A stretch of 49,471 nt of DNA, taken from the IMG/VR virus record IMGVR_UViG_3300021376_000092, positions 1 to 49,471 of that record, one strand, 5' to 3'. Shown piece by piece: positions 23,041 to 47,723 of this stretch (positions are counted from its first letter, which is position 1; every line of letters begins with the position of its first letter). Source of the DNA: a virus. A program made the translations under genes and the position numbers. The notes beneath the pieces are model-generated. The model saw only the letters and a program-made list of their open reading frames with translations. It was not told the origin of the DNA and ran no database searches.

Positions 23041-23048
23041 TATTTATC
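23041..23048 (-). promoter_or_regulatory. T4-type late promoter box
   Basis: GATAAATA on the minus strand between tRNA-Asn and the gene at 23007, with a leader of about 30 bases. Confidence 0.6.
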
Positions 23049-23453: not shown

Positions 23454-24124
23454 AAGTTTTCCAAGTAAGATTTGTTAATCACATGATCAAAGCATAATGC
23501 ATATCTTGGCGTTGTCAAGTTATTTATTACGCCGTGGGGAACCCTGCCATAAAAAAACATGAACTTGTTGTCTTGAAATAATCTCTTCTCAAAATTGTCT
23601 TCAGGACCAAGCCCGAGGTAACATTCTAACCCATCCTCCTGATTTACGTCAACACCCCACAGTCCACGAATAATTAAATTATCACCCAATTCTGGATCTG
23701 GGTCAATATGCCATTTGATTTCTTTTCCTGGATAAACAACACTAATTCCAACTCTTTTTCTAATCCCTGCTTCATAGCATGTTCTAGCTAAGACTGGAAG
23801 ATGTTTTGCATTTTGAGCAAGAATTATTTTCCTATTTTGATCTGGATATAGTTTCTGTTTATATGTCTCTTCAAGCAAAGGAAGAGTGTCAATTAACATC
23901 TCCTTTGTAAACTCTCTGGTATCTTCTAATGCACCAAAGATTGCAGCGATTTTCCACCCAGCATAAGCTACAGAATTTTCTCCGTGATATCCTGCTGTTC
24001 CTGCCCAGTTTGTCCAAACTAACTTATCTTTATTCTCTAAGAATTCTTTTTTGATTTTATCGAATCTTTCAGATAGTAATTTAAGACCTGGATTTATTTC
24101 TTCAAGTGTAAAAAATCTATCCAT
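23444..24124 (-). CDS. 2OG-Fe(II) oxygenase, aspartyl/asparaginyl hydroxylase-like, 226 aa
   Basis: Begins at ATG 24124 (MDRFFTLEEINPGLKLL); the frame is open further but would overrun tRNA-Ala. The triad is clear: IKWHIDPDPELGDN supplies the HxD, VPHGVINNLTT the distal His, and PRYALCFD the oxoglutarate-binding Arg. The order and spacing match the Asp/Asn beta-hydroxylase family. It lies between tRNAs and small genes. It differs strongly from the enzymes at 1339 and 9272, so these are separate acquisitions. Substrate unknown. Confidence 0.78.
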   Translation of the reverse strand: MDRFFTLEEINPGLKLLSERFDKIKKEFLENKDKLVWTNWAGTAGYHGENSVAYAGWKIAAIFGALEDTREFTKEMLIDTLPLLEETYKQKLYPDQNRKIILAQNAKHLPVLARTCYEAGIRKRVGISVVYPGKEIKWHIDPDPELGDNLIIRGLWGVDVNQEDGLECYLGLGPEDNFEKRLFQDNKFMFFYGRVPHGVINNLTTPRYALCFDHVINKSYLENLCR

Positions 24125-24592: not shown

Positions 24593-25293
24593 AGGAATTT
24601 AAACGGACATTTACTTTCTTCCTGCTCCTTCTTGAGTCTGTTTTGAATCAGCTCCCAAGAAGCATAGCGATCAAACTCTTTCAACCTCAGATTTTGAGAT
24701 TGTTTCTCTAGAACATCCTCTGGTGGTACTTTCTTCTCAAGAAGAAAGTTAGAGTCTGATCTTTGAGAATACAATTTTACCATAAACAACGGAGTTCCTT
24801 TAGGAATCCAGATGTTTGTATCATGATCTAGGATTTTAAATCCAAAGTTGATAGGTCTTTGCCAGACAGAAAGTGGAAAAGTACCTGGAATAGGTTCGAT
24901 ACCGAACCTACAGATTTGGAAGTGTGGTAGCTGTTCTATCCACACATCCTTTTCCTTTGTCCAAAAACACCATCCATAACGAAATTGTATCTCGGGGAGT
25001 TCCCCGTCTAACCAATTTGGTGTTTGCAGGAAAAATTCATCGAACATTTCCTGCGGTAGGTTAGTTTCTAGATATTTAGTCTCGCTTTTATAGATCATTC
25101 CCAGATCAAAAGGTTGATAAAATACCCAGATGTTTTTCCCCCATTCTTTCCAAGCTGGGCATTTTGCATGTGAATAGTTTCTATCATACCCAGAAGAGAA
25201 CTTCTTAGGTGCGGGAATATAATCTTCTGGAAAATATTCCTTTTGGAAACTATCGTTTGCGCCTATTGTTGGAAGATAATAAACTTTTTTCAT
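24580..25293 (-). CDS. Hypothetical protein, 237 aa
   Basis: From ATG 25293 (MKKVYYLPTIGANDSFQKEY); the upstream extension runs into tRNA-Leu. Aromatic-rich throughout: WKEWGKNIWVFYQPFDLG, RYGWCFWTKEKDVW, and PHFQICRFGIEPIPGTFP with SVWQRPINFGFKI. The order suggests a compact beta-sandwich like those of unassigned phage proteins of about 240 aa, and the C-terminus is basic and helical. I do not recognise the family. It sits between tRNA-Leu and tRNA-Thr. Confidence 0.7.
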   Translation of the reverse strand: MKKVYYLPTIGANDSFQKEYFPEDYIPAPKKFSSGYDRNYSHAKCPAWKEWGKNIWVFYQPFDLGMIYKSETKYLETNLPQEMFDEFFLQTPNWLDGELPEIQFRYGWCFWTKEKDVWIEQLPHFQICRFGIEPIPGTFPLSVWQRPINFGFKILDHDTNIWIPKGTPLFMVKLYSQRSDSNFLLEKKVPPEDVLEKQSQNLRLKEFDRYASWELIQNRLKKEQEESKCPFKFLWKK

Positions 25294-38339: not shown

Positions 38340-38510
38340 TTATCTACGATTTCTTTGCCTTTCTTGTTCTACACGCTCTCTTTCCTCTTGCAGGAAAGCA
38401 GCTAGTAAGTTGATATAGACATCCCTTTCCCAAGGAATCATATTTTCAATATCAGTCAAGCTATATTTATGGTGCTGTACTAAAGCGAAGTTGGTCTTAT
38501 AAAATGCCAT
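38340..38510 (-). CDS. gp51-like baseplate hub assembly protein, 56 aa
   Basis: ATG 38510 (MAFYKTNFALVQHHKYSLTD) to TAA 38340. The sequence contains IENMIPWERDVYINLLAAFL followed by an acidic-basic helix (QEERERVEQERQRNRR). Short proteins with this N-terminus stand next to gp26 in T4-like cyanophages and are annotated as gp51, the hub assembly catalyst, although they are far shorter than T4 gp51. It lies 20 bases after gp26 and 1 base before the next gene. Confidence 0.72.
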   Translation of the reverse strand: MAFYKTNFALVQHHKYSLTDIENMIPWERDVYINLLAAFLQEERERVEQERQRNRR

Positions 38511-39238: not shown

Positions 39239-39904
39239 TTATGGTATAAATGGTTTGGACACTTCGTAGTAGATACCTACAGTAACTTTTACTAGACCGT
39301 TTGCACTCGCACTAGAAAGAGGAATGGATGACATAGAAAAGGGATAAGCATTTTGTAAGGTTACCGCATATGGTGTCCAATAATTTTTAGTTTTTGCTTT
39401 ACCCGTTGGTCCAGTTTTCTCCATTTTATATATGGATAAAGTTTGAGCTATATCATTATAGAAACGAACTGGATTTGTTTGAATTTGTCTATTTAATGCT
39501 TGATCTTTGGTATATGGAGAGTCGGTCGAATAACCAGAAATGAAATCCATCCAACCTCTAAAAAATCTATATGGAGTGGAAGTTGTATCACAATAAAATG
39601 ATACGTCAAATTCATTAAAAATTTTGGCGGATGGAACTTTGATGTTTTTACCTTTATGATATGAACGAATATCTTGGGTGGTAAAAGTCAATCCTGGTAT
39701 CTGAATTTCATTACATAAAAAATCCCAGTTTGATGAGGTATTCCAGTCAGATCGTTGTATTCCAAATCCTTCCAAATATGTTGCAAGATCACCCGTAATC
39801 GCACAATTAAAATTGTAAAGAGTGGCATTAGATGGACCACCCTTTTCTTTGACAATTGAAGATATAAATTGAGAAACAGTTCTGAGTGACGTATAAGCTG
39901 CCAT
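39239..39904 (-). CDS. Tail tube-like protein, probable gp54-type tube initiator, 221 aa
   Basis: MAAYTSLRTVSQFISSIVKEKGGPS, then CAITGDLATYLEGFGIQRSDW and CNEIQIPGLTFTTQDIRSYHKGKNIKVP, with FNEFDVSFYCDTTSTPYRFFRGWMDFI. This is the gp19/gp54 tail-tube fold. At 221 aa and in the gp26-gp48 neighbourhood, gp54 (baseplate-tube junction) fits better than the main tube protein gp19, but I cannot prove which. Its ATG (39902-39904) lies inside the plus-strand late promoter box. The minus late box is at 39933-39940. Confidence 0.65.
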   Translation of the reverse strand: MAAYTSLRTVSQFISSIVKEKGGPSNATLYNFNCAITGDLATYLEGFGIQRSDWNTSSNWDFLCNEIQIPGLTFTTQDIRSYHKGKNIKVPSAKIFNEFDVSFYCDTTSTPYRFFRGWMDFISGYSTDSPYTKDQALNRQIQTNPVRFYNDIAQTLSIYKMEKTGPTGKAKTKNYWTPYAVTLQNAYPFSMSSIPLSSASANGLVKVTVGIYYEVSKPFIP

Positions 39905-39909
39905 AAATA
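39902..39909 (+). promoter_or_regulatory. Late promoter box for gp4-gp53
   Basis: CATAAATA on the plus strand, 28 bases upstream of gp4. Its first three bases (CAT) are the complement of the start codon of the opposite gene at 39904. Confidence 0.7.
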
Positions 39910-39932
39910 CCCATTATGGGGTGAATCCTATT

Positions 39933-39940
39933 TATTTATG
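39933..39940 (-). promoter_or_regulatory. Late promoter box for the tail-tube/hub genes
   Basis: CATAAATA on the minus strand (TATTTATG on the plus strand). Its plus-strand ATG is the start codon of gp4, mirroring the plus-strand box at 39902-39909. Confidence 0.7.
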
Positions 39941-40375
39941 GCGTCATATAAAGGGAAGTACAGACCTACTCACTACAGGAAATACAAAGGAGATCCGACT
40001 AACATTATATACCGATCTCTTTGGGAACGCAAGTTCATGTATTACTGCGATCACAACGAAAATGTGATCGAATGGTCTAGTGAAGAATATGTCATTCCAT
40101 ATAAATCGCCAATTGACGGTCGATGGCATCGTTATTTCCCTGATTTTTACATGAAAGTAAAACAAACAGATGGAAGTACCGAAACATACTTAGTTGAGGT
40201 GAAACCAAAGGCTCAAGTCGATGGTCCGCAACCTCAAAAGAAAGTTACCAAGAGATACATAACGGAGGTAGCGAATTATGCCATCAACCAAGCAAAGTGG
40301 AAAGCAGCAGAAGAATTCTGCAGGGACAGGCTTTGGAAGTTCAAAATCATCACAGAAGTCGAACTCAAAGTTTGA
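39938..40375 (+). CDS. Head completion protein gp4
   Basis: 145 aa. MASYKGKYRPTHYRKYKGDPTNIIYRSLWERKFMYYCDHNENVIEW, then EEYVIPYKSPIDGRWHRYFPDFYMK and TYLVEVKPKAQV. This has the PD-(D/E)XK-like nuclease layout (RYFPDFY, VEVKP) known for gp4/gp50, which completes the head before tail joining. Length matches T4 gp4 (150 aa). First gene of the plus-strand block under the late box at 39902. Confidence 0.9.
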   Translation: MASYKGKYRPTHYRKYKGDPTNIIYRSLWERKFMYYCDHNENVIEWSSEEYVIPYKSPIDGRWHRYFPDFYMKVKQTDGSTETYLVEVKPKAQVDGPQPQKKVTKRYITEVANYAINQAKWKAAEEFCRDRLWKFKIITEVELKV

Positions 40376-40784
40376 TAATCTCATCAAAGAATATAAAGGC
40401 AAGAAGATATCAAATAGCGAACTGAGATATGAGGTCTTCTTGATATTAGACGAGGCTGGGGTAGGAAAAGGAAGTACTGTAAAGGAAGATAATTTTTACT
40501 TCTTTGAGTATGATCCAAAATGGAGGTCTGTACTAAAAGAGTGGGATCAATATCCTCTTATAAAGGTGGTAGAACGAAAAGGAAACATCTTGGGAGCAAA
40601 CTTGCATTATGTTTCTCCAAAGCAGAGGTTATCGATTCTAAATAATAAAAATAGAGCTTTACCTAAAGAAACTCTACATTATTACATTCCTAGAAATAGG
40701 GAAACGAATTTTTATGAGTTGACCGAAGCAGATGCAATCATTTTGAGCCAATTACCCTTAGACAAATTTCACAGGAATAGATAA
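40278..40784 (+). CDS. Unassigned conserved T4-type protein, 168 aa
   Basis: Starts at ATG 40278 with GGAGGT 8 bases upstream, inside the gp4 gene, so it overlaps gp4 by 98 bases in another frame. Residues 1-45 are low-complexity Lys/Gln/Ser/Gly. The conserved part is YFFEYDPKWRSVLKEWDQYPLI followed by GNILGANLHYVSPKQRLSIL. This YDPK...YPL...NLHY pattern recurs in large phages and is not assigned. Its place between gp4 and gp48 suggests a head or tail assembly function. Confidence 0.72.
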   Translation: MPSTKQSGKQQKNSAGTGFGSSKSSQKSNSKFDNLIKEYKGKKISNSELRYEVFLILDEAGVGKGSTVKEDNFYFFEYDPKWRSVLKEWDQYPLIKVVERKGNILGANLHYVSPKQRLSILNNKNRALPKETLHYYIPRNRETNFYELTEADAIILSQLPLDKFHRNR

Positions 40785-42010
40785 TGGCAAATTATTCATA
40801 TCCAAATGGAGTTTCCAAAATACCTTATGCTTCGTATTTGCAGATTAAAAGGTATGAGTACAATTCTGGACTAGCTAACGCTGAGAATGCATCTAAACTT
40901 GGAACTCAAGGTAGAATAAAAAATTTTAATAGTGTTGCAGGTGGTTTAGTTGGAGGACCAGCTAGAGCTCTTTATGGGCAAGATGCAGGCAGCACTTCTT
41001 TGTCATCTTCTTCAACTATAAATCCAACAGCATCTCAAAGAAGAGCAGCAGGTCTTCCTGTTACAGGCGGCAATCGCAGAGGAGCAGCACCAACCCCCCA
41101 AAGCAATATTCCTATTACTGGTCTTACAGAGGAACAGTTTAATAAAATAGTAGAAACTGGTCCTCCAGTAGAAGCCACAAACGCAAATGGTACTAAAAGA
41201 CCAATAACCCGATGGGAAGAAATTAAACAATTAATAGAGTCTGCATCTAAAACTGAACAACAATCAAAAGGAACAACATTAGATATTGTTTTACCAAATG
41301 AGGTTCAGTATAGTTATGGAGCTGAGTGGAATAACACATTTAGACTTGGTACTCTCGCTCTCCTTGCTGGAAATGTTGCTCAAGGTGTTGTACAACTTGC
41401 GACAAGTGCGACGTTGGGATCTCTTTTGGGTGCAGCTGGTGCTGCAGCAAATCAAGGTACTGGAGCAGCCCAAACACCCAGACAGCGACTCACTGGTGCA
41501 GCTTTAGCTGGAGCTTCTCAAGGAATCAACCCATTTCAAATCAACTCACCACTAGAAGTAACTAGCGGAGCAGGATTAACAAATTTAGTGGGTCTTGCTG
41601 GACTTGCCCCTAATGAAAACGCTGTACAGTTTTTTCAGAGGATGGCAAACAGGGAGTTTAGATTTACCTTTGAAATGTTTGCTCCAGATGATACAACTGC
41701 TAATGAGATTGAAAAAATTATTAATATATTCTTCAAACAAGGTATGCATCCAGATGATAAGGTTGGATTATTAGGATTTCCAGATGTATATGAAATAAAC
41801 CCAAAATTTGTATCTGAAAATGGAGTATCTGAAAATCACAAATTACTTCCAAGAACTAAACTTTGTGCTTTGACAAATATGACAGTAAATGCTGCTCCAG
41901 CTAACTTCTTCCAAACAACATTTGAAGGATACATTCCAATTGTAACTTGCGAAGTAACTTTCAAAGAAATTACAGCACTCACAAGACAAGATTTAGAGGC
42001 AGGTCTGTAA
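40784..42010 (+). CDS. Baseplate tail tube cap gp48
   Basis: 408 aa. MANYSYPNGVSKIPYASYLQIKRYEYNSGLANAENA is typical of cyanophage gp48. The middle has the low-complexity Gly/Ala stretch found in these proteins (GAAGAAANQGTGAAQTP). The C-terminal part (FRFTFEMFAPDDTTANEIEKIINIFFKQGMHPDD and FEGYIPIVTCEVTFKEI) is the tube-like domain shared with gp19 and gp54. gp48 caps the baseplate and starts tube polymerisation. Coupled to the previous gene by TAATG. Confidence 0.88.
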   Translation: MANYSYPNGVSKIPYASYLQIKRYEYNSGLANAENASKLGTQGRIKNFNSVAGGLVGGPARALYGQDAGSTSLSSSSTINPTASQRRAAGLPVTGGNRRGAAPTPQSNIPITGLTEEQFNKIVETGPPVEATNANGTKRPITRWEEIKQLIESASKTEQQSKGTTLDIVLPNEVQYSYGAEWNNTFRLGTLALLAGNVAQGVVQLATSATLGSLLGAAGAAANQGTGAAQTPRQRLTGAALAGASQGINPFQINSPLEVTSGAGLTNLVGLAGLAPNENAVQFFQRMANREFRFTFEMFAPDDTTANEIEKIINIFFKQGMHPDDKVGLLGFPDVYEINPKFVSENGVSENHKLLPRTKLCALTNMTVNAAPANFFQTTFEGYIPIVTCEVTFKEITALTRQDLEAGL

Positions 42011-42011
42011 A

Positions 42012-42632
42012 ATGACATTATCTAATTTACCAGACGTACTTTACAATATAAATCCTGGATTTGCAGATACTCGAATTCTTGCAGTCAAGAATCTTTGGCG
42101 CAGAGCACAAATTCTCGATAATTACAAAAACGAAATTTCTCTTTTTGACGAATATATTGTAAACAACGGAGAAACCCCAGAAACCATAGCTCAAGAGTAT
42201 TATTCGAATCCATTCTATAACTGGACAATCTTGATCGCTAATGATATTGTGAATTATCACGATCAGTGGCCAAGATCAAATATTGCACTGAATGAGTATG
42301 TTTTCTCAAAATACGAGAACCCTGGAGCAACAAAGCAATATGAGACAACAGAAGTAACAGACGATTCTGGAAATGTTCTTCTTAAAGCTGGACTGGTAGT
42401 TCCTTCCACATATACTCTTACATATTCAGATTCTGGTGGATTCCCAGTCACGGTTGCTCCAGTTGTTCCTGTTTCCTTCTACGAATATGAAGATCGTTTG
42501 AATGAGGAAAAAGAAAAAATTCAAATCATAAAACCAGACCTAATTGAAGATTTTGTACAAGCGTATCAAAAAATCTTACTACGAGGTGGTGATTTGTCTA
42601 TTGGACTTTCTTTCTCTGACATCAAGTTATAA
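42012..42632 (+). CDS. Baseplate wedge subunit gp53
   Basis: 206 aa. A LysM-like part (YIVNNGETPETIAQEYYSNPFYNWTILIAND) is followed by DQWPRSNIALNEYVFSKYENPGATKQYET, the signature of gp53. The C-terminal part is DLIEDFVQAYQKILLRGGD. gp53 joins wedges around the hub in T4. It ends in a strong terminator at 42654. It starts 1 base after gp48. Confidence 0.9.
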   Translation: MTLSNLPDVLYNINPGFADTRILAVKNLWRRAQILDNYKNEISLFDEYIVNNGETPETIAQEYYSNPFYNWTILIANDIVNYHDQWPRSNIALNEYVFSKYENPGATKQYETTEVTDDSGNVLLKAGLVVPSTYTLTYSDSGGFPVTVAPVVPVSFYEYEDRLNEEKEKIQIIKPDLIEDFVQAYQKILLRGGDLSIGLSFSDIKL

Positions 42633-44157: not shown

Positions 44158-44738
44158 AAGAATTCTCTCTGGATGATCTTTTTATATTTAAGAGCATCGA
44201 TGTGAAGAAAGGGTTCGTATTTCACTACTCTATTTTTTAGAGGTTCCCACACTACCTGATCGTTGATTGTCTTATCGAGATGATCGACATACTTAAAGAT
44301 CTTTTGGAAGATAGAGAGTGTCTCCAGAGTTATTCTACCACCCAGGTGAGCTTTTATCAAGGGGGGATGGACACTTTCTGTCCTGAACAGGTCGTCAAAT
44401 TTACTTGAGATCGAGTGAAGGGTGGACACGTCTTGAGAGAACAGATAGGAGAGAGACTGCATCCTTTTTAGATAGTCTGTGTAGTTCTTAGATCCTTCTC
44501 TTGCTATCTGACCTACCCACTGACCACCATCCACAATAAGATTAGACACAAAGAAGTCTCGCAGCTCATCTTCTTTAAACTTACGGGACAACTTCACAAA
44601 GAAGTATTTGTCCTTTCTGCTATCGAAAGCTTGCTGCGATGCCTTTGCTGAATTTCCGTACTTGAAGTAATCAAATGTTTTAGAAGTGAAGTGTAATTTC
44701 AAAGAGAGATACATTTTATAGACTTCAAATCCACTCAC
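44154..44738 (-). CDS. DNA helicase loader gp59
   Basis: 194 aa. MSGFEVYKMYLSLKLHFTSKTFDYFKYGNSAKAS matches the gp59 N-terminus, and LRDFFVSNLIVDGGQWVG and KAHLGGRITLETLSIFQKI complete the pattern. gp59 binds gp32-coated forks and loads the replicative helicase. It overlaps DUF1825 and gp33, forming one operon. Confidence 0.9.
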   Translation of the reverse strand: MSGFEVYKMYLSLKLHFTSKTFDYFKYGNSAKASQQAFDSRKDKYFFVKLSRKFKEDELRDFFVSNLIVDGGQWVGQIAREGSKNYTDYLKRMQSLSYLFSQDVSTLHSISSKFDDLFRTESVHPPLIKAHLGGRITLETLSIFQKIFKYVDHLDKTINDQVVWEPLKNRVVKYEPFLHIDALKYKKIIQREFL

Positions 44739-44992
44739 AGTGCCAAGAACCCCCTTGATGTTTTTTTCATAAAGTTAAGACGTTGAGCATCATACTTCAA
44801 CTTCTCTTTCAAAGGTTTAGAAATCAACTTACCTACAGTTTCAACCTCAATACTTTTGTCTTCACAAAATTGTACGATGGCTTCGATGTAGTTTAGGTTT
44901 GATTGCTTTACCAATCTTTCAATCTCTAGGGAGAACTTGGCAGCAGTCATGAAGTTTTCTTCAAAGACATCATCAATTCTACCAGTCCCCAT
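44735..44992 (-). CDS. Late transcription coactivator gp33
   Basis: 85 aa from ATG 44992 (MGTGRIDDVFEENFMTAAKF), 14 bases inside the end of the nuclease gene. The core NYIEAIVQFCEDKSIEVETVGKLISKPLKEKL is the gp33 pattern. gp33 links RNA polymerase to the sliding clamp so that late promoters such as NATAAATA are used. The longer frame upstream would lie wholly on the nuclease gene. T4 gp33 is 112 aa. Confidence 0.85.
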   Translation of the reverse strand: MGTGRIDDVFEENFMTAAKFSLEIERLVKQSNLNYIEAIVQFCEDKSIEVETVGKLISKPLKEKLKYDAQRLNFMKKTSRGFLAL

Positions 44993-45647
44993 GTGCTTCT
45001 CTATATACGTCGATGTACTCTTTAAGCTTGCGAGTATACTTAAACTTGTCATAAATTTGAAAGACCTGTGCTTCACCTGTTTCACATGCAATAATAGTTA
45101 CGAGTTTCTTAACCTTAAGACCCGTCAACTCTTGAAACATTATAGCATAAGCTGCCTCTTGTGCAAAGTAATCTTGAATCCACTCCTCCTTCTTTAACTT
45201 AGTTGAAGTTTTGAAGTCGATGATAGCGAGTTCACCATTATGTTCTGCGATACAGTCAACTCTTCCAGCGATGCGAAGCATCTTGGAATACAGCGGTGCC
45301 TCTAGGGCATGTATGTTATCTATGTTATCTATATGGGGTTTGATTAGGTGAAATAACCCCATAGACATTACATCGTCCTTGTATCTACTGATATCTTGGT
45401 TAGAAAGATACAACTCAGCAAGCTTGTGAGTCTTATTACCACGAGTCGATGCACGCTTGGAGATCTTATTCGCCTCCTCTTCACCGACACGCTGCCGCCA
45501 CTCCATAATGGACTTCTTTTTACTATGTCCAATTACAGTAGTGACCGAGGGGTAACGTTCACCATCAACGGCATACGTTCTACCACCCTCGGTCGTTTCT
45601 GCGGTCAGATCACGAAAATCATGTATGTTGAGATGTTTAAAAGCCAA
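44979..45647 (-). CDS. PD-(D/E)XK exonuclease, 222 aa
   Basis: MAFKHLNIHDFRDLTAETTEGGRTYAVDGERYPSVTTVIG has the usual start of RecB-like nucleases. Motifs: RGNKTHKLAE (RGTxxH-type), IAGRVDCIAEHNGELAIIDFKTS (D...DxK) and YFAQEAAYAIMF (QxxxY). It probably processes DNA ends during recombination or host DNA breakdown. Conserved in cyanophage gp33-gp32 clusters. Confidence 0.85.
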   Translation of the reverse strand: MAFKHLNIHDFRDLTAETTEGGRTYAVDGERYPSVTTVIGHSKKKSIMEWRQRVGEEEANKISKRASTRGNKTHKLAELYLSNQDISRYKDDVMSMGLFHLIKPHIDNIDNIHALEAPLYSKMLRIAGRVDCIAEHNGELAIIDFKTSTKLKKEEWIQDYFAQEAAYAIMFQELTGLKVKKLVTIIACETGEAQVFQIYDKFKYTRKLKEYIDVYREAHGDW

Positions 45648-47522: not shown

Positions 47523-47723
47523 CTATTTATTTGTGTGCTCATAGAGCATGTCAAATAGTTCATCCGCTAAACTGTCCAGATCTTCTGGAGCTTTCCACTC
47601 TGAAGATGGTGAAAAATCATTTGGCTTTGCCTTAAAAAGATTGTTCACCTCTTCAGTAATCTCTTTCTTTAAATTAACCTCTGTTTCCCCATTCGATTTG
47701 GGGGAAGGCTTCTGCGACGACAT
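47523..47723 (-). CDS. Hypothetical protein, 66 aa
   Basis: From ATG 47723 (MSSQKPSPKSNGETEVNLKK). A disordered N-terminus is followed by acidic helices (LDSLADELFDMLYEHTNK). It overlaps the DUF6433 gene by 50 bases. Function unknown. Confidence 0.6.
   Translation of the reverse strand: MSSQKPSPKSNGETEVNLKKEITEEVNNLFKAKPNDFSPSSEWKAPEDLDSLADELFDMLYEHTNK
47524..47531 (-). promoter_or_regulatory. Late promoter box
   Basis: AATAAATA on the minus strand, 26 bases upstream of the start at 47498. It overlaps the stop of the 66-aa gene. Confidence 0.5.

Follow-up and report, generated by a model that had tools for sequence, protein, structure and literature searches.

A probable compact pair of facing T4-type late promoters at the divergent gp4 junction of T4-like phages

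Introduction

In a viral genome fragment of 49,471 nt (IMG/VR record IMGVR_UViG_3300021376_000092, positions 1 to 49,471; hereafter 'the window', i.e. the whole stretch of DNA that was analysed), two structural genes that are read in opposite directions are separated by an intergenic gap of just 33 bases. Are both transcribed from promoters that face each other across so little DNA, and, if so, is the arrangement peculiar to this virus? On comparative sequence evidence, we consider it very probable that the junction is a compact face-to-face pair of ordinary gp55-dependent T4-type late promoters. The promoter type itself is already known, and the compact geometry (face-to-face boxes that share bases with start codons) is a variant of it without a published description that we could find: in the literature on T4 divergent late promoters (few subscription journals were covered, so that novelty is unproven) no account of the pair was encountered.

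Results

Window positions 39900-39942 read GCCATAAATACCCATTATGGGGTGAATCCTATTTATTTATGGC. Direct reading bore out, exactly to the base, the claim of an earlier note that two CATAAATA boxes bracket a 39-base divergent interval (outer edge to outer edge): one box lies on the plus strand (39902-39909) and the other on the minus strand (39933-39940), where the plus strand carries the mirror, TATTTATG. The same note had the first three bases of each box double as the opposite gene's start codon, and this is what the letters give: the minus ORF 39239-39904 starts with the CAT at 39902-39904 that opens the plus box, and the ATG at 39938-39940 that starts the plus ORF 39938-40375 makes up the outer three bases of the minus box. 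The features of the locus are as follows:

39239-39904, minus strand: tail-tube-like protein (phrog_45, E 2e-28), first gene of the minus-strand late operon
39900-39942, both strands: perfect 10-bp inverted repeat, GCCATAAATA ... TATTTATGGC, spacer of 23 bases
39902-39909, plus strand: candidate late-promoter box CATAAATA for the gp4-gp2-gp48-gp53 operon, invariant in 11 aligned sequences
39915, plus strand: predicted transcription start, box taken as -13 to -6 (rule of PMC1524935)
39919-39925, plus strand: GGGGTGA between the boxes, invariant in clade L002-L019, the spacer bases around it varying
39927, minus strand: predicted transcription start by the same rule, crossed with that at 39915
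39929-39936, minus strand: second box AATAAATA, shifted by 4 bases, absent from L008, L014, L016 and L019, in which the outer box is kept
39933-39940, minus strand: candidate late-promoter box CATAAATA for the tail-tube/gp26 operon, invariant in 11 aligned sequences
39938-40375, plus strand: gp4, head closure/completion (phrog_218, E 1e-60), first gene of the plus operon
40278-40784, plus strand: gp2, DNA end protector, in the gp4 operon
40784-42010, plus strand: gp48, tail tube cap, in the gp4 operon
42012-42632, plus strand: gp53, baseplate wedge, in the gp4 operon
44735-45091, minus strand: gp33, late-transcription co-activator (phrog_254, E 3e-30)

Downstream of the tail-tube gene, the next gene on the minus strand is that of the baseplate hub gp26; the other long ORFs of the window lie mostly on this strand too, so that the plus operon forms an island. 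As judged by the match to gp33, the late-machinery gene found within this 49-kb fragment, the virus carries some of the T4-type late machinery close to the junction. Aligned across the nearest clade, the gap is invariant chiefly at CATAAATA, GGGGTGA and TTTATTTATG. The shifted minus box is missing from some members of this clade, which nevertheless have the minus box on the start codon, and on account of its loss in four of them AATAAATA is probably secondary. The GGGGTGA is possibly a Shine-Dalgarno-like element of gp4, its distance to the ATG (12 nt in the window, 10-12 nt with the relatives included) being long for one. Other possibilities are a leader element and a second site of regulation.

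We dropped over-representation of CATAAATA as evidence, its count in the window being at chance (3 seen, 2.6 expected), and so the case rests on position, strand and conservation; the count of ATAAATA is likewise near its expectation (10 and 9.9). The third CATAAATA copy (38464-38471, minus strand) was also dropped as a promoter, as it falls inside a small ORF (38340-38510) and is probably coding sequence only; TATTTATG occurs in the window at the junction and in that small ORF only. The placement of CATAAATA at the junction is not due to chance: a facing pair within 45 bp arose in 0 of 200 dinucleotide shuffles of the window, and of facing pairs of the ATAAATA core, two were observed, while 3 of 200 shuffles yielded one pair and none yielded two. 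Furthermore, ATAAATA is split 9:1 between the minus and plus strands, and 49 kb of sequence hold a single plus copy, that at the junction, before the gp4-gp2-gp48-gp53 operon. Both junction boxes end 29 nt before the start of a structural gene on their own strand, the normal distance for a late box (other boxes of the window sit 26 and 29 nt before genes). Four more late-box-like cores on the minus strand (23041-23047, 23521-23527, 25073-25079 and 47524-47530) have no annotated long ORF close downstream, where small genes may have been missed.

The late box of T4, TATAAATA, occupies -13 to -6, and CTAAATA is the late motif of Aeh1 (PMC1524935); for the cyanophages S-PM2 and Syn9 the late motif is NATAAATA (PMC2984593). 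The boxes of the window belong to the same motif family and, like T4 late promoters (gp55/gp33/gp45), would consist of a single 8-bp element with no -35. Both CATAAATA copies fit the 8-bp pattern of NATAAATA and TATAAATA: their first base, C where the T4 consensus has T, is within the N of the cyanophage motif, and position -13 is variable in relatives (PMC1524935). That such boxes follow the direction of transcription is seen in Syn9, nearly all genes of which are on the plus strand: ATAAATA is split 37:1 and CTAAATA 23:2 (plus:minus), with no such split in the control 7-mers GTAAATA (27:16) and ATAATTA (20:22). In this phage 16 of the 37 ATAAATA copies fall 20-40 nt before an annotated start, and the coding strand has TATTTA[TG] at 3 places in 177 kb. 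At its gp48/gp4 junction, just ahead of the sole late operon on the minus strand, stands the only minus-strand ATAAATA of the 177-kb genome, the converse of the window with the strands exchanged. Conservation and strand placement thus argue for what the earlier note had proposed, namely late promoters on both strands.

Since a scan with the tail-tube gene returned only near-identical contigs, gp4 was chosen as the anchor, and gp4-anchored scans gave 241 usable loci, in nearly all of which a gene diverges from gp4, and 139 distinct junctions (related and not independent). Counting as a pair any gap with [AC]TAAATA on the plus strand together with a minus box that lies on or closely precedes the start codon of gp4, we found both facing boxes in 95 of the 139 junctions, as against 0.07% of dinucleotide shuffles; conservation of the mirror arrangement beside gp4 in other phages, which had been put forward as a check, was thereby found. 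Among the paired junctions the core-to-core distance is 16-27 bp. The minus box is ATAAATA at -5 in 57 junctions (its octamer overlapping the ATG by three bases) and CTAAATA at -7 in 37 (octamer TCTAAATA, overlap of one base), and 41 of the 95 pairs mix CTAAATA with ATAAATA. The plus box stands alone in 35 of the 139 junctions, including one coherent clade, from which it follows that the pair is not indispensable. Separately, a marine clade (L053, L057, L175-L181 and part of L185-L240) retains the plus box before gp4, but its gap contains no [AC]TAAATA that could serve the opposite gene.

Named phages were added individually, as the scan with T4 gp4 gave few loci. Syn9 (L092) has gp48 (minus) and gp4 (plus) with the boxes TCTAAATA ... 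TATTTATG, and differs from the window in combining CTAAATA with ATAAATA and in pairing gp48 with gp4; P-SSM2 (L093) has T4-GC10 (minus) and gp4 (plus) with the boxes TCTAAATA ... TATTTAGA, and differs in carrying CTAAATA in both. Facing boxes are also present in P-HM1, Syn1, ACG-2014f and Sinorhizobium phiM7, the gap contains one box only in the sampled Ackermannviridae, Vibrio K353 and Klebsiella KpF2, and no box was found in the gp4 gap of P-RSM6. In T4 (L258) genes 4 and 53 diverge, with TATAAATA GATAATA TATTTATA between them; here, too, gp4 and a baseplate gene have two facing boxes between them, but these are 7 bp apart, with the Shine-Dalgarno sequences outside the boxes and no overlap with start codons, whereas in the window the boxes are 23 bp apart and the partner is a tail tube gene instead of gp53. 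The T4 relatives L261-L268 keep the 4/53 facing pair at varied spacing. The cyanophage framing of the earlier note was therefore too narrow, T4 and its relatives having the arrangement at gene 4/53. The box type (ATAAATA or CTAAATA) varies while its placement stays constant. The partner of gp4 is gp48 in Syn9 and phiM7 (L270), the tail-tube/GC10 gene in P-SSM2 and the window (39239-42632), and gp53 in T4; as the far-side gene differs in this way, the facing pair persists through changing gene order. On these comparisons we regard the pair as an old and widely kept arrangement of T4-like phages, and no one-off. Many forks of the gp4 tree are weakly supported, so that it shows spread only, and its rows for Syn1 (L280) and P-HM1 (L281) were set to wrong starts; both phages carry the pair.

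Two further observations concern annotation and other T4 junctions. The gp4 start appears to be annotated about 90-100 bases short in S-BM3 (L091, 2501-2600) and Syn1 (L280, 901-994), in both of which gp4 homology extends to the junction; TTG is the likely start in S-BM3. T4 uses both orientations of paired late boxes, since inh/segE (L259, 14020-14045) has another facing pair, 6 bp apart, and 26/51 (L259, 18439-18464) an overlapping pair that faces outward (TATTTATAAATA).

Discussion

The simplest account of the junction would be compaction, by which two late promoters of standard spacing, each a single -10-like box about 29 nt before its own gene (as in solo late boxes), would share a gap roughly as long as that spacing. 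With the gap so short, each box would fall on the opposite start codon, the complement of which (CAT) would double as the first three bases of NATAAATA. The late RNA polymerase (host core with gp55 and gp33, activated by the gp45 clamp) would bind either box, starting rightward at about 39915 into gp4-gp2-gp48-gp53 or leftward at about 39927 into the tail tube gene and gp26, and each transcript would pass the opposing box. These predicted starts agree with the earlier suggestion that transcription begins inside the interval, and the leaders computed from the box positions would be 23 nt each, with 5' ends complementary over about 13 nt. We infer that both promoters fire, presumably from these two positions. 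As to the proposal that the operons share one minimal element, there are two boxes; what the operons would have in common is the stretch of DNA covered by a polymerase at either box. Because each polymerase would cover the box and start of the other, simultaneous initiation is unlikely, and two polymerases would be expected to exclude each other at the junction, whereby the operons may compete.

Bidirectional promoters of E. coli (Warman/Grainger) likewise serve both strands from one short stretch, and their polymerase binding is mutually exclusive, an expectation that for the window rests on overlapping footprints. They share or overlap one symmetric -10, whereas the window has two separate inward boxes 23 bp apart, with transcripts that would overlap at their 5' ends, and thus falls outside this promoter class. 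As competition in the E. coli promoters arises only under strong activation, and not necessarily at low activity (PMC12825309), the weight of polymerase exclusion here would depend on the firing rate.

An unlikely explanation of the mirror, though the best of the alternatives, is an RNA hairpin, in which GCCAUAAAUA of a read-through RNA would pair with UAUUUAUGGC and so sequester the start codon, whereas the late RNA would start in the loop and be translated. Such hairpins have precedents in the T4 genes e, soc, 49 and I-TevI and are implicated for segB (PMC3014915); in all five the late-box complement covers the start codon, as it does here, and the starts of segB and I-TevI in particular look alike in that the late-box mirror overlaps them. 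Folding of the junction RNA gives a 10-bp stem that includes the AUG in both directions and would hide the start codon in the long RNA, the predicted late transcripts being without the 5' arm. The T4 hairpins, however, serve one gene on one strand, whereas the mirror of the window faces a second gene, and on the plus side read-through would need an antisense source through the tail-tube gene. Moreover, the fold does not stand out (z -0.7 and -1.3), pairing beyond the boxes is in no excess among relatives and no better than after arm swaps between junctions (two matched-box classes, P 0.1-0.97), the mixed boxes of 41 of the 95 pairs mispair within the stem while both boxes stay, and the boxes of T4 4/53 lie away from the start codons. 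The mixed-box junctions and the arm-swap tests led us to reject the hairpin as a conserved feature; a start-codon-masking hairpin is possible in the window as a side effect.

We give less credence still to the reading that one box only, or neither, is a promoter and that the rest reflects a translation leader or A+T composition, with TATTTATG before a start codon: the junctions in which the plus box stands alone would suit it, but Syn9 and the window otherwise rarely have TATTTATG at a start codon, and shuffled junctions so seldom yield the pair. That the mirror is a protein operator, an inverted repeat bound by a dimer that represses both operons, is scarcely credible in spite of the perfect 10-bp repeat and the invariant GGGGTGA between its arms, as the arms are the late box and little besides, and their spacing (16-27 bp across phages, 6-7 bp in T4) varies more than a fixed dimer would tolerate.

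A pair of ordinary late promoters thus being our preferred reading, it is a long shot that the replication machinery also reads the facing pair as a conserved switch of direction. The T4 clamp is oriented according to the nicked strand, and swapping the nicked strand flips the direction of activated transcription (PMC2988020). If this applied here, and if the two boxes could not both be bound at once, fork direction or lagging-strand discontinuities passing the junction would choose between the gp4/gp48/gp53 side and the tail-tube/gp26 side, and the switch would balance head-closure and baseplate parts against tail and hub parts.

What makes the finding interesting is its range, from T4 to marine phages: the facing pair recurs beside gp4 in T4-like phages of E. 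coli, Sinorhizobium and marine cyanobacteria, although box sequence, spacing and partner gene change. This recurrence makes it a natural test case for interference between clamp-activated promoters, and for whether replication direction may set the choice between them. Furthermore, the strand bias of the boxes (as in Syn9) offers a clean test for late-promoter calls in unmapped phages, and the junction provides an example of a compact genome in which a promoter and a start codon would use common bases.
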